This document shows, one piece after another, positions 29,275-63,007 of a stretch of DNA of 64,000 nucleotides (the first letter of the stretch is position 1; the number at the start of each line of letters is the position of its first letter). Origin of the DNA: Ilyonectria destructans (Eukaryota > Ascomycota > Sordariomycetes > Hypocreales > Nectriaceae); contig JAHEWK010000011.1 in assembly GCA_020740775.1 (NCBI GenBank), positions 682,001 to 746,000 on the forward strand. Reading direction: 5' to 3'. The translations under genes were made by a program, and so were the position numbers. Under the pieces are notes generated by a model, which was not told the DNA's origin, did no database searches, and saw nothing but the letters and a program-made list of their open reading frames with translations.

Positions 29275-32200
29275 ATGGCGGAGATGCAAGCAACCGTTGA
29301 CATTCCAGAGCCCAAGGGCCTGCCATTTATTGGCAACATTACTTCCATCGACCCTGAATTCCCTCTTGGGTCGATGAAGTCGCTTGCCGATCAATTTGGT
29401 GAGCTCGAACAGGGTGGTTTTCATGTCCACTGAAGCTGACCCCGACGTCAACTAGGCGAGATCTATCGCTTGCGATTCCCTGACAGGACCGTTGTTATCG
29501 TCTCCAACCAGGCTTTGGTAAATGAGACGTGTAACGAGAAGCGTTTCAAAAAATCAGTAAACTCGGCGCTGAATGTTGGTCGCATCAAAATTCACTTTAT
29601 CATGGGGGATATTTTCTGACCGCTACTCTAGCAAATCAGGGCGGGTGTCCACGATGGATTATTCACAGTAGGTTAGCGCGTCCGAAAGCAGTCCTACGTT
29701 TTAACACTGAACCTAGGCAAAAATGGGAGAGGAGAATTGGGGTATCGCACATCGAGTCCTTATGCCAGCTTTTGGGCCTCTGTCGATCCGTGGAATGTAC
29801 GATGAGATGCACGACATTGCGTCCCAGCTTGCTCTTAAATGGGCACGATATGGACCCGACAATGCAATTGCCGTGACCGACGACTTTACCCGATTGACGC
29901 TGGATACGCTAGCATTATGCTCTATGGGATATCGGTTCAACAGCTACTACTCCCCAGTCCTTCACCCATTCATCGAAGCGATGGGCGACTTCCTCACTGA
30001 AGCGGGTGAGAAGCCACGTCGCCTACCCCTGCCCGCCATCGTCTACCGGGCCCGAGACGACAAACTCATGAGCGATATCGAGGTCATGAGAACCACCGCG
30101 AAGGAAGTGCTAGAGGCACGCAAGGCAGAGAACAGCAGCGAGAGAAAGGATCTTCTGGACGCAATGTTGCAGGGCGTCGACTCGAAAACAGGAAAAAAGA
30201 TGAACGACGAGAGCATCATGGACAACCTAATCACTTTTTTGATCGCTGGACACGAGACAACTTCCGGTTTGCTCTCATTTGTTTTCTACCAACTTCTCAA
30301 GCACCCAGAGGCCTATCAAAAAGCACAGCAAGAGGTAGATGATGTGGTTGGAAAGGGTGTCATCGAGGTCGGACACCTCTCGAAGCTGCCGTATATCAAC
30401 GGCGTTCTGCGCGAAACCCTCCGAATCAATGCAACCATCCCCCTGTTCACCGTCGAGGCATTTGAAGACACTGTTCTGGCTGGTAAGTACCCCGTCAAAG
30501 CGGGTGAGACCATTGTCAACCTGCTCGCAAAATCACAACTGGACCCTGCGGTATTCGGCGACGATGCGAACGAATTCAAGCCGGAGCGCATGTTCGACGA
30601 GAACTTTGAACGATTGAACCGCGAGTTCCCCAACTCGTGGAAGCCCTTTGGCAACGGCATGCGCGGCTGCATTGGCCGTCCATTCGCCTGGCAAGAAGCA
30701 TTGCTTGTCATGGTTATGCTTCTCCAAAACTTCAACTTTGTTCTTGACCCGAACTACGTCTTCGACGTCAAGCAGACTTTGACAATCAAGCCAAAGGATA
30801 TGCATATGCGCGCCATCCTGCGCGATAACCTCACGCCTACCACCCTCGAGCGCCGCCTTGCCGGACTCTTGAAGGAGGAGACAAAGGAGAAAGCTGCTAC
30901 CAGCGGTTCAGTAGATGACGGCCAGAGTGGTGTTCCGATGACGATTCTCTATGGCTCCAATAGTGGAACTTGCGAGTCTTTGGCACGTCGTATCGCGACT
31001 GATGCCGCAGCTCACGGATTCCGCGCCACCAAGGTCGATTGTCTGGACAGCGCAAAGGGCAACTTGCCTACAGATCAGCCAGTCGTCATCATCACCGCGT
31101 CATACGAAGGACAGCCTCCCGACAACGCGGGACATTTCGTGGCTTGGATCGAGCAAACAAAACAGGAGCAGAAGCCGCTCCAGGACGTCTCATATGCTGT
31201 CTTCGGCTGCGGTCATAAGGACTGGGTTCAGACCTTCCATCGCATCCCCAAGCTGGTCGACAGCAATCTTGAGGATCTTGGCGCCACGAGGCTTGTCGAT
31301 ATCGGCCTAACCGATGCTTCGTCGAGTCAAGTCTTCGAGGACTTTGAAGCTTGGGAGGATAAGAGCTTGTGGCCTGCGCTGACGGCTCGATACAATGTGA
31401 CTAGTCCTAGTGAGGGCACCAAAAGCAGCGTGGATGTAACCGTGTCGAACCTGAGGGCTCTGACTCTGCGCCAAGATGTTACAGAGGCAAGGGTCATCAG
31501 CACTCGCAGCCTGGCAAGTGGAGACGACAAGAAGCCGACGAAGAAGCATGTCGAGATCCAGTTGCCAGAGGACATGACGTACACTGCCGGCGACTATCTT
31601 GCCATCCTGCCAATCAACCCCCAGGAGAGCGTCCACCGGGCCATGCGACGATTCAAGCTTCCATGGGATGCTCATTTGGAGATCAACACCAACGACCCAC
31701 TGGCTCTCCCGACGAACACTTCGGTTCCGGCTAACGACATTCTCGGTTCATATGTTGAACTATCGCAGCCTGCAACAAAGAGAGTCAGTACATCATTTCT
31801 TGTCCAAGTTACCTTGCTAACATATATGTTCAGAACCTGCTCACTATCGCCGAAGCCGCGACAGAGGAGGCTACCAAGGCCGCTATCCGGCATCTTGCCA
31901 ACGATGCGTACGCAGAAGAGATTAATGCCAAGCGAGTTTCGGTTCTTGATATTCTAGAACGATACCCATCTGTTGACCTTCCCATTGGCGAATTTCTGCT
32001 GATGATGCCTTCGATGCGCATTCGACAATAGTAAGTTCTTCATCAACTCACTTCTGTTAAAGCAGAATCTGACAACCGAATAGCTCTGTTTCTTCTTCGC
32101 CACTCTGGAACAAATCCCACGTCACACTATCCTTCTCTGTCCTCAATGAGCCCTCACTCTCCGGCCATGGCTCCCATCAAGGCGTTGCCACTTCCTATCT

Positions 32201-39220: not shown

Positions 39221-39505
39221 AACGACAATAACTCCCAACATGAGCGCGGCAGCGCCGAAGTCATCGGCACAGTAGAGAACTATGCTGAGATAACATCCCA
39301 ACTACAAGATTTCTGGGGTCAGAAACAGGCTGAGATTCTTTCAAGTGTATTGGGTGAGACCAGTATCGATGGTATTAGCCCCAATCTACTTGATAAGGTG
39401 ATAGGGAGGCTCTTTGATCGATTTGAATCTGCTGTTGAGTTCAGCTCCCAATATGGATACAATGCAATCCTTAGCAACAGCGCATACTACACAATGGCGC
39501 ATTGA
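39221..39505 (+). pseudogene. Relic of a zinc-finger-module gene (helical part)
   Basis: One open frame between stops (TAG at 39218 and TGA at 39503) encodes EVIGTVENYAEITSQLQDFW, GQKQAEILSSVLGE and LLDKVIGRLFDRFESAVEFS. This closely parallels the segment after the zinc finger in the 537-aa protein at 47737-49502 (YLNEVMSQIRDFWDRKRDAI; LLNDMMGKIFDRFQSEM). No start codon, zinc finger or splice context remains, so it is a gene fragment. It lies 1.4 kb upstream of the HET-domain gene that carries the same module. Confidence 0.7.
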
Positions 39506-40885
39506 GCCAGCTGACAGAAAAGACAAGCAATTATTCCAGGAAAGCAGGTCGACCGAGACCAGCGAGGGCTGGACACAAGTGTGACCGACAAACCAGTCTT
39601 TCCAAGTGGGCAGCACGGGTTATCGGTCTCCTTTTGACATGGCGGGAGAGGGGACCGAGAATTGGGGGAATAACTTTCAACCATTTAGACGAGAGCTTAA
39701 GGTATTTCATTTATTTTATGGTTGCTTATTATGTTATGTTTCCTCGAAGAATAGACTCCTGTATTTCGTTACCATATATACAAAACATCCTCTTTGCTAG
39801 TATTGTAAATTGCTATATCCTCAGCGTCAAGACCTGGATCAAGTGCCCTATGTTATTCACAAACCTACATCATGTCTCTTGTGCAGCATTCCAGAGACGC
39901 TTAGAGCGCTCAGAAGAGTTGGACCTCTTGTACTGAAAGCTCTTGTCCCGGCAATTGGTTCGTCCTTCAACAAGTCCTTCGGAGGAAAACCTAGAGTGGA
40001 ATCCACTGGCCCTGTGCATAAATAACACCTCTTGCTGGATGTCTAACTTAGCCTTGTACCTGCTCTGGGCAATACCTCGATCATATTCATGCCGGTACAG
40101 CCTGTACAGTATATCAGTACAATGTGATTGTCAACTAAACATCGACATTTAAGGCTCGCAAGAAAGTGGCAAAATATGTACCCTGTCTGCCAGAACCTTA
40201 CTTTCTGTGACGTAGATTGCATATCATCATTCGTCTAGGCAAGACAGCAACTGTACCAGACCGAAGCACCGCATAGTGAATAATGCATGGCTGTGCAACA
40301 TAATGGGTCCACGTGTACAGAAGCAGTCATATCTGACTGAATGCCTAATATAGCCAAACAGGTGATTGCTGGGTTTTATTTAGGCACTGGTCGGGCAAAG
40401 GAACACGAGACTCGACTCCGGCCAAAATCCAGGATGCGTGACTCCTTGTTTTTCAACACGCCGTTTTCAACCAAAAATGCATGAGGCCGTGGCGGCCTGA
40501 TGGTTGCCTCTCTTATCTGGTGCATGCATATTACACGGCGGATTGGGTCTCAAGATTGCGAGGCTTGTCTCAACTAGTTCGCGGTCCGAGTCTTCCTCGG
40601 CGAAAAGACGCAATTGTTTTCGGTCGAACCAAAATACCAATTTAGGCAATCCATACTGGGGCTTCAAGAAGGCGGACAGGAGGCGTGTGCTGAGTCTTTA
40701 GCGTATCGGCACAAGTGTGCCACCAATCAAAGTCCGCTGCACCGCTGGGCCATTCGTAGCCTCGAAACGTCTGACGTGGGAGAGAACTATTTTAATCCCT
40801 TCCAACTCCAGCGCGTGCCAGATGGAATGTTAATTCATGCGATTCCACATTCTCTCAGTCGGCATCTTCGTCTCTCTCTCACACA
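39506..40885. other. Intergenic between relic and HET gene
   Basis: Short open frames only. The last 300 bp is presumably the HET-gene promoter. No repeat or RNA gene seen. Confidence 0.5.
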
Positions 40886-43300
40886 ATGCTTCTCCTAGAT
40901 ATCGCCACGCGCAAGCTTCTCCATCACGGCCCCGCCACGGGCTGGCCTGCCTATGCCGCCGTGTCACATTGTCGGGAGGACACAGAAATCACCATCAATG
41001 ACCTGCACAGCCTGGATACACAGGATCTGAAAGCAGATTCCAAGAGAGCCAGCTTCGCATGGATAAATCGTGCCTGTTCTGAAGCTCGAGCATTTGGCGT
41101 GGGAAAGCTCTGGGTCGATTCATTGTGCATCGATAGGTCATCAACTGCAGCGCTGTCCGAGGCCATCAACTCAATGTTCCAAATATACCAGGGCTCAGAG
41201 GTATGTCTCGTGCACCTCAGCGATATAGATTCGGAGAAAAATCCACTCGACAACCCAGGGCATCACATTCAGCACAGCAGATGGACGAGTCGAGTCTGGA
41301 TGCTCCAAGAGCTGATTGCGTCTGAAAATCTGCAATTTTACGACAATCAATGGAAACGAGTAGGAAACAAAAAATCCCTGCTTTCATTTCTTTCTCGTCT
41401 GCTTCAAGTCGACAGGGTTGTCTTGGAGAACTCGGAATATCTCCTTCAATTTCCTATCGGGCAGCGGATGTGTTGGGCTTCTCGGCTCTCGGCTATTCGG
41501 CAAGAAGACGTTGCGTACTCATTGCTGGGCATATTTGGGGTTAGCATGACCATTCTTTACGGCGAAGGGGAGAGAGCATTCATCCGACTACAAGAAGTGA
41601 TCCTACAGGATACTGACGATGCAACACTGTTTGCCTGGAAATCCGCTGGCGATGAACCCTATCGGGGTCTTTTTGCACACTCTCCATCTGAATACAAGCA
41701 TTTTGGGGCCCAGTCATATCGAATGCCTCTACGAATCCAAGGGCGGATTCAGACAAGCTCCGCTGGGATTCTTATCGACACATTCGGATATCACGATGAA
41801 GGAGCAGAAGTAATCTTGTGTCTTTTGGGAGAGAGCAAGCAGCAAGATGGCGCAAGAGGGTTCGGGATCTCTTTGAGCAAGTGGAAAAATTGTTATGTAA
41901 GATCTTCTCCATCGGTTTTGATCAACCTGGACCACTTGTCGAAGGGAAGGGCGAGAAGAATTTGCATCACTCGTGATGTGAGCCTGAGAAATTCGAGCAT
42001 TATCGCCATGCAAATTTCTCCCCAGTTGACGAAGCCAAACAAGCGTTTTGGGTTCATTGAGAATGGTTCAGAGAAGGGGGAAGCCGAAACCGAAACTAAA
42101 ATTCCTGATGAACCTGCCTCAACTGCCCACCAGATCGATCCGACGAATTGGATAAGGCCGGGTACATACACCTTTGCACCGGACGCCAGATCCGGCACAA
42201 TCGCCGTGTCCACGACTGCCCGAAATGCAACTGTGTTTCTAGGTACCATGGTGCCAATGCAAAAGTTTCGCCGTGGCCAGATATCTCACGGACGCATACA
42301 AGAGGAAAACACAGCCACGACGACATCTCAAAGCTTGTCCCACGAACAAGGAAGATATTTTAAAAAGCGTACAAGAAATGTGAGTCACTCAGCCGACAAC
42401 TTGGAATTTGATGAAGACATGGAGTTGTATCCAGATTTAGCCGAGGAAGTTCTAATTTTGGATGACAACCATCCATTGATGCATCTCGTGGAGGAGTTGA
42501 CAAAATTTGGTCTCATCCACTTCTCTCGATGGATGTCAACGCCGTATAACAGGGGAAACGAAAGATGTTCACCTCCAACAAGAAAACGACAAAAGACTCA
42601 AGGGTTCGAAGAGTATACCAACGTCAGGTTAACCACGGACTCGGAGGATGCAGGGGCTGTTATCATCAACGACCCAAGAATGAAGGGGCTCTTTGCCTGC
42701 CCCTTTCGACTTCGTTCGCCATATATACACCAGAGTTGCCTCAGAGAAGGTGCATTTTCCACCTTTCGGAACCTCTTGCAGCATCTGTTAGTAGCGCACC
42801 GCCTGCCATATTATTGTCCCATCTGTGGACAAATCTTTGCCATGGCTGAGGTTCGCGATGGCCACATTAGAAAAATGACGTGCAATCTACGAACTGCCCT
42901 AGAAGTCGAAGGCGTATCTGAGAATCAGATTATTCAACTTCTTGAAGGGGCTGGCTCACTACAATCGAAGGAACAACAGTGGTCATCGGTCTGGAATTCA
43001 ATTTTTCGCGCAAGTGAGGGGCCTCCAATGCCGTACTTGGCATCCGAGGTCGAGGGATGTATCCACTGGCTCAGAGGCTACTGGCTGAAATATGGACAAA
43101 GTGTCATCTTGGATTACTTGAAATCAAGGAAGCTCCAATGCGAGGAGTCTCACGTGAACAAACAAGAGCTGACGGCCTTGAATTACAAGACTTTGGATCG
43201 GATGATCGATGAAGTTCTCAAGAATTTCTTCCAACTCGAGGACGGAAACAACAATGAGAGTGGAATTGGAAGACTTCTGGAAACTCTACAAGGGATGTGA
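40886..43300 (+). CDS. HET-domain protein with C-terminal zinc-finger module
   Basis: Single-exon 804-aa protein. The N-terminal 260 residues form a HET domain (heterokaryon incompatibility, a TIR-related fold that triggers cell death in allorecognition): YAAVSHC at 23-29, GKLWVDSLCID at 73-83, SRWTSRVWMLQELIA at 131-145, and EDVAYSLLGIFGVSMTILYG typical of the HET-E/HET-D group. Residues 280-600 have no recognised domain. From about 605 a Cys/His module begins (CPFRLRSPYIHQSCL, HLLVAHRLPYYCPICGQIF, C-terminal His and Cys). It is followed by a helical region with WSSVWNSIFR and a tail to residue 804. The same module stands alone in the two neighbouring proteins. Inference: the module is the recognition or interaction part and HET the effector. 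No NACHT/NB-ARC or WD repeats are present. Confidence 0.88.
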   Translation: MLLLDIATRKLLHHGPATGWPAYAAVSHCREDTEITINDLHSLDTQDLKADSKRASFAWINRACSEARAFGVGKLWVDSLCIDRSSTAALSEAINSMFQIYQGSEVCLVHLSDIDSEKNPLDNPGHHIQHSRWTSRVWMLQELIASENLQFYDNQWKRVGNKKSLLSFLSRLLQVDRVVLENSEYLLQFPIGQRMCWASRLSAIRQEDVAYSLLGIFGVSMTILYGEGERAFIRLQEVILQDTDDATLFAWKSAGDEPYRGLFAHSPSEYKHFGAQSYRMPLRIQGRIQTSSAGILIDTFGYHDEGAEVILCLLGESKQQDGARGFGISLSKWKNCYVRSSPSVLINLDHLSKGRARRICITRDVSLRNSSIIAMQISPQLTKPNKRFGFIENGSEKGEAETETKIPDEPASTAHQIDPTNWIRPGTYTFAPDARSGTIAVSTTARNATVFLGTMVPMQKFRRGQISHGRIQEENTATTTSQSLSHEQGRYFKKRTRNVSHSADNLEFDEDMELYPDLAEEVLILDDNHPLMHLVEELTKFGLIHFSRWMSTPYNRGNERCSPPTRKRQKTQGFEEYTNVRLTTDSEDAGAVIINDPRMKGLFACPFRLRSPYIHQSCLREGAFSTFRNLLQHLLVAHRLPYYCPICGQIFAMAEVRDGHIRKMTCNLRTALEVEGVSENQIIQLLEGAGSLQSKEQQWSSVWNSIFRASEGPPMPYLASEVEGCIHWLRGYWLKYGQSVILDYLKSRKLQCEESHVNKQELTALNYKTLDRMIDEVLKNFFQLEDGNNNESGIGRLLETLQGM

Positions 43301-43942
43301 CCTTCATGAGTTTATTCAATTGACTTGATTCGTTTGCAAAAGCCTTATCTCTACACTCTTGTGGTATGCTGAAATCAAGACATGAATCAGTTATACAAAA
43401 GTAGGCATGACAGCTATATGTGTTAGTCGATGGTTGTATACGTTATCGTGATGATGAGGAAGACAACACCGTGAGTAGTTGACTGACAACCCATTCTATG
43501 GCCACACGTTCCATACATCCCCGATATACGGGAGCTTTTTCAGCTAGTCCTCTTGTTTAGGTGACATCCCCGTCGAGAAATTTGAAGGCAAACTTGATGT
43601 CCACTTTCCTTCTATTCAAGCAGTTTGGTCCAGAACAAAGAGAATTGGGGAAAAGAATATTTAACCAAAGTTTATTCAGGTCAAGATCACGTTGGATTGA
43701 CTCAATAGTTTGTTGTTGGCTAAAATGACGCGACGGACAGATCCATCCAGTTACTCTAATTTATCTCAACTAGCATAAACCATCAATTCATCAAACATCC
43801 CATCCCCAACCAGTAGCGAAAATTGCTAACAGTTGGAAGTCGTGCTGGGGGAAAGAAACCATTAAGTAAAACAACATGATAGCGCCTAATGAAACCAATT
43901 GAGATGTCTGATATTCACAATCACTTCCCTAAACAAATCCGC
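43301..43942. other. Convergent intergenic region
   Basis: 640 bp between the 3' ends of the HET gene and the 551-aa module gene. AT-rich; no gene seen. Confidence 0.6.
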
Positions 43943-45658
43943 TCATTCATCCTCATCGGACTGGTGGCGCTTGTGTTGGTGCTCCGGCGGCGGCGGCGGT
44001 GGCGGAGTCGAGGCTCTTTGAGGATGGCCTTCTAGCATAAAAACTCGAGGAGGATAACCCGGATCGGGATCTATTTGAGCGGAATCCACGGGACCGGGAT
44101 CTCCAGGATGGTGATGCGGTTGAGTCCGGTACTCCCAAGCGTCGGGCGCTTGGGTAGGGCTCGCTTGAGCAAGGTCCCCTTGAGTTAGGTGGTCGTGTTG
44201 AAGGTCCTGACTGAGCCACTCTGCCGGAGAATACGGCTGAAAAAGGAAATCCGGGAAAATACTTGCTTGGAGATCAGCTTCCACCACCGGTGTTTCATTC
44301 ACTGGACCTGGGTGCCAGCTAAAATCGCCTTCTGGCGGTGCTGTCAGTGGCGTTGTGGGTGCGTCCGGGGCTACGGTTACTGTTGCCGGTGTCGCAGCCG
44401 CTGGGAGGTCGGGATCTTTCGTGCTGGGGGCCGGAGAGTCTGGCGCGGTGCTCAATGCAGCGCCAGTAGAATTCGCTTCGAAAATCGCCGCGTAATCAGT
44501 TAAGAGTTTTAACACGCGACGTATTTCTGGGCAGCTTCCTGCTGGGATATCTCGTCCTGGTCCGGACTCCCAAAACCCTTCTATAACATCTTCAAAGTTA
44601 TCCTGGAGTCCGGAGGCTGTGAGGTAGGGGTCACTGGGACGGTCAACGCCGGGAAACAGGATCTCCCAGAGCTTGAACCAGTTGTCTGTCATCGTGCCGC
44701 AGCGATCTTCTCGGCTCGTGAGCTGCCGTATTTGATCCTCCGTGACTCCAGGAACTTCGATATCTCTCTCGGTACAACGCATTTGTCGGATATGTTTAGC
44801 AAGCTGGTCATGCACTTTGAGGGTGTGGCCCCCGGGGAAAATCTGTTTGCATCTTGGGCAGTGTAGAGGGCGCTTGTGCGGTGTCCGTAAAAGATGCTGT
44901 CGGACGTCTGCAACAGTGCGTAACTTGGTGTTTCGACATGAGGCGTATCTTTGGCGGTCTCGCTTGTAAAACGGACACGCAAGCCGGCGCTTAGCATCTT
45001 GCTGGTCGGGCCTTTGCTTCTTGTTGCCATCTCCACCCGGCTGCTCATCTCCAGGCCTCTTGCGGCCGTCGTCGCGCCCTTTCCTTTTCGGTTTGTTGGG
45101 CCAACCCCCAGACCAGCGGGGTTGATTCTGTCCAGCTTTTGAACTCGACCCTTGACCACTGTGACTGCCCTGGGATTGGCCTTGGGCACCTTGGCCAGTG
45201 GTTCCACCAACCAACAGCCTTAACAGCGCAGCGATAATTTCAGACTCATTCGGACATGACTTCCGAGCACTGCCTTTGTGGGTGGCGAGAGGGTCGGAGC
45301 TGGAGGGTAATTCAATTGGAGCGAGTTTGGGAGACAGGCGAGGTGTAGAAAACCGGTGCTTCGAGATGGCCCTTGGCGATTCATGGCTCGTTGGGTGGTA
45401 TTGATCAATAAGGTCGCCACTGTGGCGGACAGGGTCGCGGTGGGCGGGACGGCGAAGTAGTTGTATAGTTAGAGCATGGAGAACTCTCTTTGCTTTGCGG
45501 CCACCCGAAGGTTTGGGCTATTATTTGGTCAGTCCCGGAACCAACACCAGCAGAAGCTATAATGGAAGATGTCGTACCTCAGACTCGGGAGCGAGTTTGG
45601 CCTTTGTTGAGATATCTGTACAACCCCCGTGGCGTTCCGAACTTTCGAAGAACTTCAT
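43943..45658 (-). CDS. Stand-alone zinc-finger-module protein, 551 aa
   Basis: Exons on the minus strand 45658-45578 and 45517-43943; the 60-bp intron (donor GTACGA, branch GACTGAC, acceptor AATAG) joins APESE to PKPSGGRKAKRVLHAL. Start at ATG 45658 (MKFFESSERHGG). Residues 130-200 are a Gly/Gln/Lys/Arg-rich, nuclear-localisation-like linker. The module begins at about residue 208: CPFYKRDRQRYASC, then a His, HKRPLHCPRCKQIF, a further His pair and Cys, then GVTEDQIRQLTSR and WFKLWEILFPGVDRPSDPYL. It resembles degenerate C2H2 zinc fingers. The C-terminal 250 residues are Pro/Ala/Asp-rich and could be an activation or low-complexity region. Best guess: nuclear regulator-like protein related to the HET protein's tail. 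Function unknown. Confidence 0.75.
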
Positions 45659-46542
45659 ATTTGCCGTCGCACGCTTGCCGAACACAAGCCCGCCAACTCC
45701 TGCGTGTAATGAGGCTGAAACCGAACCGGTAGTGGCACAACGGGAAGACAAAGACGTGCACGCAACAACGGCCTATGCGGATAAACACAACTGGGTCAGT
45801 TAAATGAAGGATTCGAAAAGCAACCAACAATGCTAAAGAAACAAAGACGAAACGTGACACATGGAATGGTTGGAGGATTTTGGGATTGTGAGCTCACGGA
45901 CGACACGGCCGGGCAAGGTTGGCCGCTATAGCCCATCAAAGTGGACAAAGCCTTTGTAGCATTATTGGTGGCCCCGAAGGGGGCACGCAGCGGCGCACTT
46001 GCTGCAAGAGCCTGAAGAGCCGCCTATAGTTCAAGGCTGGAGCCCCAATTGCCCTGTGAGCATTGAACTAGGGAGAGAGAAAACAAAGGTGGCTTGCAAG
46101 GCTCCCCGGCTGCTCCGCCGACTTGCTTTCTGCCTTTGGCTTTTCCATCTGCACAGCGCATGAAAACTGCCATCATTGAAGAATACGCCTTTCTACACTT
46201 CATTCCATGATGAGTCTGTGGTGGTGGCGTAGGCGATGAGAGCCTCCGTCACTTTTTGTCTTGGCAGCTTGTTGTCGCGAATCGGCCTAACATCACAAGG
46301 GCCATGCCCGGGCGTGTGTTGACAATTCAGGAGTGAGGGCGGTGATCCGCAGCTGCGTAGTAGAACACGGCGGCTCAACACGAGATGCGCCGATTCCGAC
46401 TTTGCTGTTGAAATGGGTACGCAACGGTGTAGAGCCAAATCCCAATGCCATTAGCGGCAGTATATAATGATATTGCCATCCCTGAGACGGCCAAGTGGTT
46501 AAGCAACCATTGAATTCTTTGTAACCGCATCTACCCCGTACA
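45659..46542. other. Divergent intergenic region
   Basis: About 0.9 kb. A 14-bp near-palindrome ccgcagctgcgtag at 46347-46360 recurs twice further on (47194 and 47314). A tRNA-like A-box (ggccaagtggttaag) at about 46485 has no matching B box and is not called as a tRNA. Confidence 0.5.
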
Positions 46543-46919
46543 ATGAGCCACAGTGCAGCGTCAGCCCTCACCGGAGGTTACAGGTATGCGAGCTCAGCCT
46601 CATTCTACTTCGCCTCGCGGCATGATTGCAAATGTAAATTCATGTGTAACTGCTGACCCTTGGTTCGCCATCTCTCTACAGTCCATCCCCGCTCCTCCTC
46701 GGTGACCGTCTACAGGAATGGCTTCAAGATCCATTCGCGCCGGTCCAAGACAAGCTGGTGAGGCAACAGCCGTTAGGACCATCAGGCGCCACAACGCAAC
46801 GGAGGTCAGAAAAGAAACAACGGAAGATGAAGAAACAAGGGAAGTTGAAGGCTGGAAAAACGGTCGCAGACTTTGATAAGCGGTTTGGGACGAGCAAATC
46901 CAATGCTGCTAGCAGGTAG
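46543..46919 (+). CDS. Small basic protein, 92 aa, spliced
   Basis: Exons 46543-46583 and 46682-46919. The 98-bp intron has donor GTATGC, a CTGAC branch 21 nt before the acceptor and acceptor CTACAG, and joins SAASALTGGYS to PSPLLLGDRLQEWLQDPFAP. The second half is strongly basic (RRSEKKQRKMKKQGKLKAGK) and ends DFDKRFGTSKSNAASR. Support comes from the clean start context (acaATGAG), consensus splice signals and a biased, non-random composition. I do not recognise a family. Lys/Arg richness suggests nucleic-acid binding or nuclear/nucleolar localisation. It is easily missed because exon 1 codes for only 13 complete residues. Confidence 0.6.
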
Positions 46920-47736
46920 CAAGAAATGAAGGCGTGATTTACGAAGTGTAGCGGCGGGTCCTCTCACTCGTTTCTAATGGCTCTGGATGTAGACTAGGCG
47001 CAACTTACAGGGCTTGGTCAAAAATAACCACTGTATTGAATACTTCGCTAGTTGGGGACAAGATCTCATCATTCTTGACATTTGATCCCGGGAGTCCGCG
47101 TTTCAAAGGAGGCGTCCTGCCGCGCTCGGCATGATAAATGGCCATCTAGCATTCCTGCTGAGGCCCAACACAGGAGGCGATGTGTAATAAAGGTACGCAG
47201 CTGCGTAGCCCGACGTCATCTGGCTTACACAAGGCAGACCTCGGCCCAACCCCCACCATGCTGCGCCTGATCCAGACCGCCTCGTGACCCTTCAGTTACT
47301 TTGTCATTTCCAATACGCGGCTGCGTAGCTCGACGGCGTGGGTTTCGTTGGTTGCCCAGCACGGCCACGCTGATACCGAGAACGCCCGCGACATGCATCC
47401 GACTAGCGCTAGTGAACAGATTGACAAGTATCTGTCAACAGAAGGTACAAAAGTCATAGCTTCACGCCTAGGGGGTCAGAATTGGTTTCTCGGTCATAAT
47501 GCTGGGCCCCCTTTGACGTTTTCCCGAGAGCTTTGAGCCGTCGAGGTAACAAAAAAGTGCGACAACTGTGCAACCAATGCAGGAAAAGGTCCCCCGCAAT
47601 GGGTCTCTGTCGAATTCTACCAGGCTGAGCCTTTCATGTTCCTCTATCTTGAATCCTTACACTCTCCATGAAAAAGAAACCGGCTTCTTTTTAATCATTT
47701 TGGAGTGTTGTTGCTGTGTTGTTGCCGCCACCTCCC
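46920..47736. other. Intergenic with two copies of a 14-bp palindrome
   Basis: tacgcagctgcgta (perfect palindrome) at 47194-47207 and tacgcggctgcgta at 47314-47327, each followed by gcYcgacgKc. With a third, weaker copy at 46347 they may be ends of decayed short elements or regulator sites. No gene supported. Confidence 0.5.
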
Positions 47737-49502
47737 ATGAAGGTCTACGGCCCAATTTGCGGTTGCGACCTTCCAGTCCATGCCATGGACTTTTTCCCTC
47801 AAGACCCAATGACAGGACCTGCAATCAGCGCACACCTCCAGCAAGAAAATAATACGATCCAACCACAGTTGTTGAGCACTTGCCCCACCACCATCGAGCA
47901 TCCATGTGCACCCGATCCTTTACTCTTCCCCATCCGACTTGGGAATAATGGTCAAGTCGCAAGCGGTCACGACACGAATTACCCTACATTTGAAAACCAC
48001 GACAGATCTGCGGGTAGTCTTCTACTACCCTCCCAAGATGCACTTCAACATGGCGGTAATCCTCCACCTAAGCCTTGCCAAATTCTTCAACAACCACCAG
48101 GCCAGCATCAAGCCAATAGAGGTAAGCAATATTCATGAACAGCGGTGACTCAAAGATTTGTCTGTGGGATCTAGTAGGATGTTCCGTATGATAGACTTAC
48201 GTATTTCCTCCCAATGTGATACACCTCCCTACAGCAATGAACCGTGGCTGATCTGGAATATTCGGACGCCTAGGGAAACGACCCCGACATGACGAAACCA
48301 CTGAAATATCCTTACCAACTGTCAACGCCGAGACCGCTATACGAGAGTGCAAACTATATCAAGAGCCATACCCCCCAATTTGGCCTTGCAACTACTCTAC
48401 TCCAAGCAATATGCAAAACTACCAGTCAAGTCCAGAGGCTGCTGATTTACGTTTCATCGGTGATTGGTCAACTCAGAGTGTCACGAATCCCACTTTTACA
48501 GCCAGCCCCAACCTGGATTTCTCAACTTTTCCCTCGGGGCCAAGCAACAAAAAGCCACGCCTGCCATCTTCGGTAAAGCGAAAACGTCATGACTTACAGC
48601 CAAAAAAGCGAAGCCGTCACTCTCCTCCCCCTACGAGTCATCCAAATCTCGCCAGGTCACAGTCATTTGGTAGCAAGCAGCTTAAGCAGCAGAGTGACCC
48701 AACAAAGACGCCAGCCCTTCTGGCTTGTCCATTCTACAAGAGCAATCGCCATAAGCATCATGATTGCTTAAAGTATGAACTTCGACGGGTAAAAGATGTC
48801 AAGCAACATATTTACAGAAAACATGTGCAGCCCGAATTTTATTGCAGTCGCTGCTTCAGACTATTTTCCACGTTCGAAGAGAAGTTTGACCACGATGTGC
48901 ATGAGCCACTATGCGAAGGGCAGCGCCCCCAAAAGTTTGACGGCATTTCAGAACAGCAACGGCAAGATCTCAACTGCAGCACGAGTCGAGGCCGGTCAAT
49001 GGAAGAGCAGTGGTTCAGTACATGGGACATATTGTTCCCAGGTCAAACGCGGCCTCAATCTTGTTATCTCGGTAACTATCTCAATGAAGTCATGTCACAA
49101 ATTCGAGACTTCTGGGATCGAAAGCGGGATGCTATCCTTCCAGATGTACTGGACGATACTCACGTCAATGTGGTCAATCCTGGTCTTCTAAACGACATGA
49201 TGGGGAAGATCTTCGACCGATTCCAGTCTGAAATGTCGATTCCGGCGACTGAGATGAACACAACACCTTTGGTACCTGAGCATACATCACAAAAGCCTAT
49301 CGAAATGCCCGACACAATGACCAAAGAACTGAGCCAAGAAATCCACCCAACAAACGCCGGGCAAGATTCGCAGGAAGATTCCCAACTCGAGTCGATTTTC
49401 ATGGAGACCGACCAGGTTAAATTCGACAATGAGGACGGATTTCTCAGTGAATGGGAACTACTTCACTTCGGCTTTAGCTCTCCACCTACAAGTTCCACGT
49501 AG
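47737..49502 (+). CDS. Stand-alone zinc-finger-module protein, 537 aa
   Basis: Exons 47737-48121 and 48274-49502. The 152-bp intron (donor GTAAGC, branch GGCTGATC, acceptor CCTAG) joins HQANR to GKRPRHDETTEIS in frame; the nearer CTACAG acceptor would give an immediate stop. First ATG is 47737; ATG 47785 (MDFFPQDPM) is a good alternative. Residues 220-270 are basic (KKPRLPSSVKRKRHD, KKRSRH), nuclear-signal-like. The module starts near residue 280: CPFYKSNRHKHHDC, RRVKDVKQHIYRKH, FYCSRCFRLFST, FDHDVHEPLC, then WFSTWDILFPGQTRPQSCYL and the helical YLNEVMSQIRDFWDRKRDAI. The C terminus is acidic. It is a diverged paralogue of the 551-aa protein and of the HET-protein tail. A transcriptional role is possible but not shown. 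Confidence 0.72.
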
Positions 49503-56355: not shown

Positions 56356-56873
56356 AGGCAAATGTGTGGGCTACTAGATGTACTAGCAAGCGAGTGCCTT
56401 GGGCTGTGAATGAACTAGGGGATTGACGTTGACTCTTAGTGGTGCTGAGGAGGCAGTGGTGTCACGCACCTTAGGTTGATGTGCTTTTGTATTTGGATAG
56501 AGTTCTGTGATAATATTGCACTTTGCCTGTTATTCGTTGCATTTTATTTTTCTCATCGTGAAGATACTTGGGTGCTCCCCCGTCCGTCAAGGTGGTTGGT
56601 GTTGTCGCAGTGCGTTAGTGCCACTGAGCAAACCACGGCTATTGCACTAACAATCTTTGACATCCGGCCCCACTCAAGCTCGCTCCCTCCGCAACTCCAC
56701 ATTTCATGGTCATCTCCACGCCACCAGAGCCTCAACCCGCAATCGACGCCCGCCACCGCAACCTCCTTATCACCGTCGCCTCGCCGCATGAATCCGCCGC
56801 CCGCAACATGCGCAAGCCCGCCGTCTAAACCCAGCCCCGATGGCGTCCCAGGCGACGCTGACTCCCCGCAACA
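56356..56873. other. Intergenic
   Basis: Downstream of the methyltransferase and promoter of the Rtc1 gene. The last 150 bp is C-rich and lacks strong features. Confidence 0.55.
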
Positions 56874-59800
56874 ATGTATAACCGCGACTCCAAGATCATC
56901 CGCAAGCTCCTCGGCAAGGCGGCGCCTGAAACCCCCACCGGCGACCCGAACCACTCCATCACCAGCGCGCCCACGTCCTCGGCAACCGCAACCTATCGCC
57001 CTTCGAAGTCGCAGGACGGCGTCTACCGAGCCGGCGTTCCTATCCTCAGCCTCGATGTCTCGCCCGATCGCCGGGCCGCCGTCTTGGGCGGCGCACATAT
57101 CCTCAAGACGGTGGTGCTGGACGACCCGCAGAGCTTCAACTTCAACTTCCACGAGGGAGTCGATCTGCGGGCCGTCATTACTGCGCAGACATCTGGTCCA
57201 AAGGGGAACTCGACGGCTGACCAGCTCAGCATTCGCGACGTGAAATGGCACGGCCACTCGACCATATTTACGGCATGCGCCAACGGCAAGATCTTCACCT
57301 ACGACGTCTCCCGCGTCGGGTCTGGAGCAGCCGAACCATTGGAATACATACAGATGCAAGAAGACTCTCGACAAATCACGACACTCGACGTCAATCCACA
57401 TCTCAAGAGCTGGCTCCTCTCCGGCAGTCAGGACGGAATCGCCCGCGTTTTCGACACCTCGGCACCTTTGCAAGGCCGGTCCGGCGGCATCACCTTTCGA
57501 CAACGCTTCGCGCCCCTCAAATGCATCGATCCGATTAGACAGGTCAAGTGGTCGCCCAAGGTTGGGCATGAGATGGCCTGTTGCACTGAAGGAGGCGTGG
57601 TGCTGAAGTGGGATGTCCGACAGCCCGCCAGGCCAGTGCTACGGATCAACGCGCATGAGAAGGCATGCGCATCGATCTCATGGCATCCCGATGGGAACCA
57701 CCTCATAAGCGCGGGCTGGGATACCAAACTTCATGTATGGGACCTTGGAACCACTGCCGATAAACGCCAGAAGCCGAAATACACAGTGTCGACTCCCGCC
57801 CCCGTCTTCGCCATAGCCTGGAGACCTGGCCTCTGGTCGGCGACGGCTCAGAGCAAACGCGTCGCTCAGGTCGCTGTCTCATACGACGATAGCAGTTCTC
57901 GAAGGTATGGAACCTCGGCGGTGCATATCTGGGACCTTGCGCGGCCCACGATGCCCTACAAGGAGATTGAACGGTTCGAATCTTCACCAGCTGCCTTGCT
58001 TTGGCAGGATCAAGATATGCTCTGGACGGTGGGTCAGGATGGGCAGTTCACTCAGTGCGATGTCGCATTTGCACCAAAGGTCATTGATCGCCAGTCTACG
58101 TCATCCATGGCCTTTTCTCCCAAAGGCGATGTTCTCATGTTCCTCGATGAACGACCGAGTTCGCAGCGACCACGACCTCCAGTCAGCCACCATGCCGATA
58201 TCGTTCCCCGAACCCCATATGGATCAAGTCCCAATAATCAAATGCTGAGCATCAGCCGAAGCGACTCCGAGGAGGACGTCGTAGGTAGTTTCCTCGGTCC
58301 CCGACGACGACATAGCCGTAAGCGGACAGGGAGATCGGGGCCTCCAATGAGCACTACTCCTCCGTCCAGTTCGAGTATGCCCGATGACCATAAACTCCTT
58401 CTAGGGCTCGACCAGGCAATTAAAGTAACCGGCATGTTCAAGTCACAGCAAACAATGGCGTCGGGGCACGTTCCCAGCACCAGGACAACGCAAGTTTACC
58501 AGTATCTCTCGAGTATTTACCTCGAAACGCTCCAGCGCGAGCTCCCATACGTTAAGAGGGGCAAGGCCCTCGACAAACGAGTTGCTGCCATTATGGAACA
58601 GTACGCCAACGCAGCTCAGAGTGTCAGCCTCTTCCGACTTTCTCAAACTTGGCGCATTCTATCGTATGCGGTCGGGCTGCTTCTTGAGAGACGTGCCCAA
58701 TACCACCTTGAAGTGCGTCTCGGCCAGTTCCAGAAGCTCAAGATCGACGAAAAGAAGGGCAGTGGTAGGCTGAAGCCAGTCGACCTTTACTCTTCTGTTC
58801 GAAGCTACGGTGAGGAGACCCCAAGGCGGCTGTCTACTCAATCAACTGTCCCCATAGGCCGGTCCATGTCGAGTCGATCACTTCTATCCGAGGGGATCGA
58901 GAGCACCTCCAACGTCCCAACCCCTCTTGCACGACCGGCGGACCGCAATTACGACACATATGAGCACTCTCAACAAATCGGGAGAAAGCTGGCGGCAGTG
59001 ATGGAGCCTGACGAGCTTAGCTTGGGACCAGCGGTGCAAGATCATCTTGACGACACCCCCCGGAAACGTCTTGACTCTGTTCCCGTCTCCGAAGTGAGCC
59101 ATGATAGTGAGCGCTCACACATCTCCAGCACCGAAGGTTACGACTTCTACGATGCGGAAGCATTGGTCCAGGCTATGGATGTCCCCATGCCCCAGACGGA
59201 GCCGCTAACCCTCGACTACACTGGCCTCCAACGTGCTGACAATAGGAAAGTCGTTAGGCACGATTCCGATGAGAGTTTTGTTCAGATGTTTTCCACCTCG
59301 GATGCGACCAAACCGGCGCCGACTGCCTCCGTAACCAACGGCAACGGAACTTGGAGGTCGAGCCTGGCCAGGCACGCGTCCGACATGTCCACGCAAAGTC
59401 AGGAATTCCAGAGCCGGATTCGCGGGGAGACGTTGAAAACTACGGAAAACAAGGACCCGCCGAAGCGTCGTAAATCGTCCCGAGTGAACGAATCCCCGGA
59501 GGAAGTGTTTCTGATCTCGCAGACGACAATTGGAACCGACGACAGTTTTCCGTCTCAGACATCAGAGCCCTCACAGCCCGAATCAGAAATGCCAGTCAAG
59601 ACAAATGCGCCATCAATGCTGCCGCACATATCGGAACAGCCGGCTCAGCAGCAGCCAGCCATTCTCACGCCGTCGAGTCAACCCGGCCGGACTCCCAGCC
59701 CTGTCAAAGGACCGTCTCCAGCCCAGCAAGACGTTCGGCCCTATATCCTTGAATCCGACTATCTACCGTGGGAATACGATCCTCTATATCCCCATCCAAC

Positions 59801-60785
59801 AGTCTCCGACGGGCCAATACCCATGATATCGTCCCTTGATCCCTACTCTCTCATCACCAGGGCTCTGGACTACGAGTCCCGGAGTTCTGCTTTGAACGCC
59901 TCGGCAATTATCTTGTTGCTGAAACCTCTTGTGCCAGACTACGTTATCGACTATCATCAAGCTAGTGCCATCCTCCGGCAACACCACTCGCGCCTCATGC
60001 GCATGAGTCTCTTTATCGAGGCATCGCTCCTCCGTAACCTCTGCATTCGAGGCTGGCCCGAAGGGTTGCCTGAATGGGGCGAAAACTACACTGCCATCTT
60101 CACACCTGCTCAACAGGGCGTCAAGGTTAGCTTCTTTTGCGCTTCCTGCCGAAAACCCAGGGAGATTGATCCCAAGGGCGGCAAGGCAGCGGTCTGGATG
60201 TGTGATCGCTGCAAGAAGGCCATGGCTCCTTGCGCTATCTGTGGGCACCGGGATCCAGCGCAGGCCAGTTACGTCCCCGCGGATATCACCAAGGCAATGG
60301 ACACGCCAGATACACGCCTGTCGGAGTGGTGGTACTGTCCCGGCTGCGCCCACGGCGGACATGCTTCCTGTCTCCAGGCCTGGCACGCTCCTCTCGGTTC
60401 CCCAGACAGTTCCAACGGATCGACCACGTTTAGCGATGGCTGCTGTCCCCTCGACGGCTGCGGCCACGCTTGTCTGCCGGGAAAATACCGCGCCGAGACA
60501 ACGACAGCTCGATCCGACGAGCTCGGCCGCGCCACTGTCGAGAAGTCGCGTGCGCGAGAGGATCGCGCAAACAGCAGCAGCCGGCGGTCGAGTCCGCGCC
60601 CTGGGTTGGACCGGGCCGTGAGAAGCGACACCAACGACATCCCGCAGAGCCGGGCGGTCGGCATGGCGCGAGAGGCTCTCAACAAGGGCAGCGGTGGCAT
60701 CCTTAGCTCCAGTCCAAACAGGCCTCTCGTCACGGGAGAACGGGAGAGGCGGAAGAGCGTCAAGTTCGCGGGGCCCGACAAGTGA
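56874..60785 (+). CDS. Rtc1/Sea2 (WDR24) subunit of the SEACAT/GATOR2 complex
   Basis: Single-exon 1303-aa protein. N-terminal WD40 propeller (about residues 55-430): VPILSLDVSPDRRAAVLGGA, QLSIRDVKWHG, QITTLDVNPHLKSWLLSGSQ then DGIARVFDTSAP, IRQVKWSP, CASISWHPDGNHLISAGWD then KLHVWDLG. A long Ser/Pro-rich middle (430-1040) contains a helical segment. The C-terminal zinc-binding RING-like region has Cys/His clusters FFCASCRKPREI, MCDRCKKAMAPCAICGHRDP, WWYCPGCAHGGHASCLQAWH and CCPLDGCGHACLPG. This architecture is that of yeast Rtc1 (Sea2) and metazoan WDR24, vacuole/lysosome-associated activators of TORC1 amino-acid signalling. Length is in the usual range for filamentous fungi. Conserved core gene; no oddities. 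Confidence 0.92.
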   Translation: MYNRDSKIIRKLLGKAAPETPTGDPNHSITSAPTSSATATYRPSKSQDGVYRAGVPILSLDVSPDRRAAVLGGAHILKTVVLDDPQSFNFNFHEGVDLRAVITAQTSGPKGNSTADQLSIRDVKWHGHSTIFTACANGKIFTYDVSRVGSGAAEPLEYIQMQEDSRQITTLDVNPHLKSWLLSGSQDGIARVFDTSAPLQGRSGGITFRQRFAPLKCIDPIRQVKWSPKVGHEMACCTEGGVVLKWDVRQPARPVLRINAHEKACASISWHPDGNHLISAGWDTKLHVWDLGTTADKRQKPKYTVSTPAPVFAIAWRPGLWSATAQSKRVAQVAVSYDDSSSRRYGTSAVHIWDLARPTMPYKEIERFESSPAALLWQDQDMLWTVGQDGQFTQCDVAFAPKVIDRQSTSSMAFSPKGDVLMFLDERPSSQRPRPPVSHHADIVPRTPYGSSPNNQMLSISRSDSEEDVVGSFLGPRRRHSRKRTGRSGPPMSTTPPSSSSMPDDHKLLLGLDQAIKVTGMFKSQQTMASGHVPSTRTTQVYQYLSSIYLETLQRELPYVKRGKALDKRVAAIMEQYANAAQSVSLFRLSQTWRILSYAVGLLLERRAQYHLEVRLGQFQKLKIDEKKGSGRLKPVDLYSSVRSYGEETPRRLSTQSTVPIGRSMSSRSLLSEGIESTSNVPTPLARPADRNYDTYEHSQQIGRKLAAVMEPDELSLGPAVQDHLDDTPRKRLDSVPVSEVSHDSERSHISSTEGYDFYDAEALVQAMDVPMPQTEPLTLDYTGLQRADNRKVVRHDSDESFVQMFSTSDATKPAPTASVTNGNGTWRSSLARHASDMSTQSQEFQSRIRGETLKTTENKDPPKRRKSSRVNESPEEVFLISQTTIGTDDSFPSQTSEPSQPESEMPVKTNAPSMLPHISEQPAQQQPAILTPSSQPGRTPSPVKGPSPAQQDVRPYILESDYLPWEYDPLYPHPTVSDGPIPMISSLDPYSLITRALDYESRSSALNASAIILLLKPLVPDYVIDYHQASAILRQHHSRLMRMSLFIEASLLRNLCIRGWPEGLPEWGENYTAIFTPAQQGVKVSFFCASCRKPREIDPKGGKAAVWMCDRCKKAMAPCAICGHRDPAQASYVPADITKAMDTPDTRLSEWWYCPGCAHGGHASCLQAWHAPLGSPDSSNGSTTFSDGCCPLDGCGHACLPGKYRAETTTARSDELGRATVEKSRAREDRANSSSRRSSPRPGLDRAVRSDTNDIPQSRAVGMAREALNKGSGGILSSSPNRPLVTGERERRKSVKFAGPDK

Positions 60786-61092: not shown

Positions 61093-63007
61093 TTATCTTG
61101 AAACATTCTCTCTCAGTCCTTTAGTTCTGAGCGTAAACTTAGCGTCGCCCTCGTCAAAGGGTAGTGACACGACGACATCATTCAGGCTCTCCACTGCCAC
61201 CTCATCAGGTGTTCCATTACCGTTGCTCTTCATAAGAGCCTTCCTCAGCGCATCCCCGTGCTGATTCATCGTCTCGCTTTCACCACTGCCCCGTCGACTC
61301 CCAGCAGTACTACTGCCGTCGCCATCAATTTGGGTTGACATGGTCGACAGCCTACCCTTCAGTCTACCAGCCCACAGTCCCCGAACACCACCCTTTTTGC
61401 GCTCGGGTACATCCTCGGTCCCGGCGCTGCAAACGTAAAGCAAGTACTTGAGATTAGGAAGCGAGTGTCGGATGTCGACGACCTTCAGGCCTTGGGAGGA
61501 GCAGAGGGACTCGATGTTCTTGTTGAGGAGGAACCAGGCGTATTCGAAACGCCACTGGCCAACCGTAGACCCCCCTCGGGGGAGATAGAGAGGGAATTCT
61601 CGCCGGGACACAGTCTTGTCAGAGAGATGGGAGATGTCATCCCGGGCATAAGAGCGAGACCCAAACGCATCGAGGGGGTATGGTAGCGGGTGTGAAAGAT
61701 AGAATTGTAGGTGGCGCGTGAGAAGGGACACGAAGCCGAGGCCGGCGGAAAGAACATCCTCGGTGATCTGCCTGGCCGTGGCAGAATCGTAGGTTGAGTT
61801 TGGCAGGGGAACATTACAAATCTGGAACGACAGGGGAGGCGCATTGGGAATCGGCGTGATGGGGAAGATGTCGGCGAGATCTGAGCATATGCGACGGCGT
61901 TGCCCTCGGATCTGCTGCTCCGTCTTCTCGACGAGCTCCCTTGACGCCCGCAGGTTTTCCTCGTTGTTCGCAATGTCCTCCTCCGCCTTGGCCTGAAGTT
62001 CCCTCCCATCGGCTATAGCTGCTCTTCGACTCCTGAGCGATTCCAGGAGATCGTCTCTGTGCTTCTCTGCAAGTCGGTTCGCTCGTCGTTGCGTCGTGAC
62101 ATATTTTTCGGCGAGCGCGACGGCCTCCTCTGCTGTCCCTGAAGTATCCGCAGGACTCTCCTCCAAAATTTGGTTTATTTCACCCATAATGCGTCGCTGC
62201 GTTTCCATGGCATCCTCGATGGAGCTCTCTAGATTGGCTAGCTTCATTAGCGCATTATACGACGAACTCGCGATTGTCGGTGCCTGCTTGGGATCGGATA
62301 TACGGTTGGGGAAGTCGAGCGAGTAGATTCCGTCTTCGAGGTGGAAAACGAGGGCATTCGGCGGGAATCGCCTATCCATTAGGGTTCCAACGAAGTTAAG
62401 GCGTCGCAAGTCCACCATCTCCTCCAACAAGAAGACCCAAGATTGTTGTTTCGGTCGCTTCGCCCACAGGCGGATAGTCATGACGCACGATCTCGAAATC
62501 GTCGGCTCGCAGTCACCCAGACTGAAAAACTGAAAGTTGAAGTTCTGGACACGTTAGATTCGGCTCAACACAAGGTGTCGCATGTCTGCTTACCGCCGAC
62601 CTCTCCCTCACCTCGCTCACGTAGACAGGATCAGCACACCCGCCTACGTGCAGCGAGTAGAAGACATCCCCAACAGCCTCCTCGACCAAAGTCTCCAGCT
62701 TCTTTTGCCTCGCCACGGGGTTCGCGTGCGCCATGCTCAAGCTGGTTCTACGGGCAATCTGCGGTCGCAAGCTCTCAGACCGCAGGCTGTCGTTCCGGAG
62801 GTTCTCGGACGATCGCGACGGATGCAATTGGCCCGACTCCCTCAGCACCTGGAGCTTCTTGGGGCTCCGGTTGATATCTGCATCGTCCGTCGTGCGCAGG
62901 GTCGCGGGCGCAAAGGACAGGTTTCGCAACCAGACGCCGCGGAGGTGGCGCAGCTTGCGGTTCTGGGCCAAGAGGCGCGGTCGACGCGGTTCGGCGAGGG
63001 ACGACAT
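61093..63007 (-). CDS. Vps38/UVRAG-like (Atg14-domain) subunit of PI3-kinase complex II
   Basis: Predicted 621-aa protein. Exons 63007-62594 and 62544-61093 on the minus strand; the 49-bp intron (GTAAGC to TCCAG, branch TCTAAC) joins VYVSEVRERSA to NFNFQFFSLGDC, the family's conserved C2-like junction. The domain continues MTIRLWAKRPKQQSWVFLLE and GTLMDRRFPPNALVFHLEDG. A long coiled coil covers about residues 225-330 (LVEKTEQQIRGQRRRICSDL at its end). The C-terminal domain has ICNVPLPNSTYD, GFVSLLTRHLQFYLSHPLPY, FEYAWFLLNKNIESLC and LPNLKYLLYVCS. This order is that of Vps38/UVRAG, which with Vps34, Vps15 and Vps30/Atg6 makes complex II for endosomal sorting. An Atg14 assignment is less likely because the N terminus lacks the zinc-Cys repeats. 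Confidence 0.86.

Follow-up and report, generated by a model that had tools for sequence, protein, structure and literature searches.

Gene block and domain layout

The window, a 64,000 bp stretch of Ilyonectria destructans (contig JAHEWK010000011.1, positions 682,001 to 746,000, forward strand), contains a block of three genes. A HET-module fusion protein and two stand-alone neighbours end in the same zinc-finger-like module. The genome data are from one strain of this root fungus. The first-pass annotation had proposed the shared module and the clustering of the HET gene with its neighbours. Both were confirmed, and the anatomy was more regular than first described. The features of the block are as follows.

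39221 to 39505 (+), part of the block
40886 to 43300 (+), HET-module fusion protein of 804 amino acids
42686 to 43297 (+), C-terminal module of the HET protein
43943 to 45658 (-), part of the block
44480 to 44986 (-), part of the block
46543 to 46919 (+), small basic gene S
47737 to 49502 (+), part of the block, with a structure prediction of its homologue P0003
48717 to 49253 (+), part of the block

The fusion protein passed the cut-off for the Pfam HET domain (PF06985) with 51.7 bits against the 22.5 required, and P0020 matches window positions 40886 to 43297. A HET region (residues 1 to approximately 235) is followed by a beta-rich middle, a linker (382 to 522), a basic patch and the zinc-finger-like module. 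The predicted structure had a mean predicted local distance difference test score (pLDDT) of 64. The linker was of low confidence and is probably disordered. The shared module was folded in the predicted structures, and the confident fold of P0003 was limited to approximately residues 274 to 450. The module did not reach the curated cut-off of the Pfam C2H2 zinc finger models. The module proteins may bind zinc and DNA and may be located in the nucleus. The available portions of PMC4986451 and PMC10197012 describe the HET domain as a cell-death domain and a remote relative of TIR, and the fusion protein may act in cell death.

Gene S is kept inside the block in the window, on contig C56 (G000:C56:1045531-1045704, minus strand) and at L066 (C7). 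Its conserved stretches lie around WLQDPF and VADFDKRFG. A Pfam scan of gene S gave no match.

Copies of the block and of the module

The trio is present at four loci in the genome and the HET domain was found at three of the four. An intact HET effector is retained in the window and on C56. The HET effector lies in tight linkage with a candidate partner, as in a het/vic locus. Two diverged cassette types, A and B, keep the same three-gene geometry. At the HET position the modules of the two types share only about 28-34% identity, and the short flanks of the two types have no genes in common. As the diverged cassettes retain the same partners, a joint function of the block is suggested. At L042 (C41:60776-62257, plus strand) a DUF7580 frame lies upstream of a HET-less cassette member, on the opposite strand.

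With three module sequences as queries, searches of the genome returned 47, 31 and 49 matches (E ≤ 0.01), which were merged by hand into approximately 51 loci, fragments counted. Twelve further module loci, not counting the cassettes and the C4 remnant, were inspected. In a Pfam scan of four frames, one carried ankyrin repeats and three had no domain above cut-off. The first-pass annotation had named a ubiquitous module family as evidence against its own proposal. Within this genome the module is largely of that kind, but the block itself is not common.

A promiscuous zinc-finger-like family could have expanded by tandem duplication next to a HET gene, and segmental duplication could have copied the block, with no functional link between its members. 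The large family, its varied N-terminal parts and the decay of old copies are consistent with this. Unlinked duplicates would however be expected to scatter or to lose members at random, and the three-gene geometry survives between types A and B despite the module divergence and the differing short flanks. An absence of any functional link is therefore considered unlikely.

Relatives and conservation of the HET part

The window HET module as query returned three proteins, namely the window's own, P0021, and, from D. estremocensis, P0022. The C17-type query returned 15 proteins, 12 with species names. The three named species checked belong to the Nectriaceae, Bionectriaceae and Clavicipitaceae, all Hypocreales. 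Pfam HET was detected at E ≤ 0.01 in seven of 19 aligned HET-type proteins, two of which (P0030 and P0032) were below cut-off. Among the other 12 rows three are partial (the C56 locus, the C17 module frame and P0024), five align over the HET region but give no Pfam hit there (P0027, P0029, P0031, P0033 and P0034) and four have virtually no HET region (P0023, P0028, P0035 and P0036). The aspartate of the LWVD stretch is typical of HET domains. It was kept in five of the 12 rows holding the stretch and not in the remaining seven. The HET-less forms were not a single clade in the tree, so HET loss may have occurred more than once. The public gene model of P0037 (Paramyrothecium foliicola) fuses the HET-type module with a cytochrome P450 and is possibly mis-joined.

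Identity of the HET part and of the module was compared in 12 hand-picked pairs. Type A pairs gave HET/module values of 91/74, 62/53 and 69/55%. P0025 gave 60/50% with P0026 and 61/47% with P0030, which lacks the LWVD aspartate. The between-type pair gave 35/30%. Pairs with P0032, P0034 and P0029, in which HET is degenerate, gave 40/48, 44/49, 43/54 and 38/61%. In two close Clonostachys pairs (93/89 and 91/89%) the module was not better kept than HET. The module proteins could be ordinary transcription factors. This is fairly unlikely, as it leaves unexplained both the intact HET effectors in the window and on C56 and the better conservation of HET than of the module in type A.

Elsewhere in the window, a frame at 29717-31954 (+) has P450, flavodoxin and FAD-binding domains, the last below cut-off, an arrangement like that of self-sufficient P450s. 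To the right of the block are a WD40-repeat protein (56862-60782, plus strand) and a VPS38/ATG14-like protein (61096-62553, minus strand).

Interpretation and comparison with known systems

The best reading, with a probability of roughly 40%, is a co-inherited effector-plus-regulator cassette, perhaps nuclear, connected through the shared module. The stand-alone proteins, having the same module without the effector, would regulate the HET protein through module sharing, which may serve self/non-self recognition. The first-pass annotation had suggested an allorecognition or immune locus. This is supported in part. The block itself is established, and recognition and regulation by the stand-alone proteins are what we infer. 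In a selfish block, the HET-module protein would be a poison and the stand-alone proteins antidotes on the same target, the block spreading and decaying; this is very unlikely.

The effector-plus-regulator cassette might, tentatively, belong to a class of cell-death cluster of which the papers searched gave no description. A nuclear HET effector would have a folded zinc-finger-like module in common with two stand-alone neighbours, accompanied by the small basic gene S, with regulation or recognition by module sharing and not by amyloid templating or an NOD-like receptor (NLR). The block would be duplicated as a unit and subject to birth and death, the effector half being lost first in some lineages. 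Neither the fusion nor the block was described in the titles and abstract openings searched, although most subscription papers and bioRxiv preprints were outside this coverage and a description may be published. A HET effector and neighbours with the same conserved module in a repeated block are a concrete, testable candidate for effector control. If correct, a folded, putatively zinc-binding module would be a further means of mutual recognition between clustered cell-death genes of fungi.

PMC12258605 discusses NLRs of the Sordariales that end in C2H2 zinc fingers as putative integrated decoys, and reports 34 NLRs with fingers of this type. These are likewise immune-type proteins ending in a zinc finger, but they are NLRs, unlike the HET protein of the block. 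In het-B of Podospora anserina, a HET domain is fused to a C-terminal binding domain in Bh, whose incompatibility can depend on an adjoining gene, and the adjacent partner (Bp) is active in incompatibility (PMC10890737, in part). There Bp is PII-like and the C-terminus of Bh is predicted to adopt a lectin fold; the portion available mentions no zinc finger and no domain common to Bh and Bp. In fungal amyloid clusters the death signal is transmitted by a sequence common to adjacent genes, and in the two- and three-gene HET-S/NWD2 and PP/RHIM clusters the effector and the upstream protein share it (PMC12881547, in part). The block likewise has a homologous module common to adjacent genes. Theirs is a short amyloid with an NLR trigger, whereas here adjacent genes share a module with a predicted fold, and the reading frames of the block yielded no NLR. 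Because amyloid clusters signal through a shared sequence and het-B depends on a neighbouring gene, regulators acting on the HET protein are favoured.
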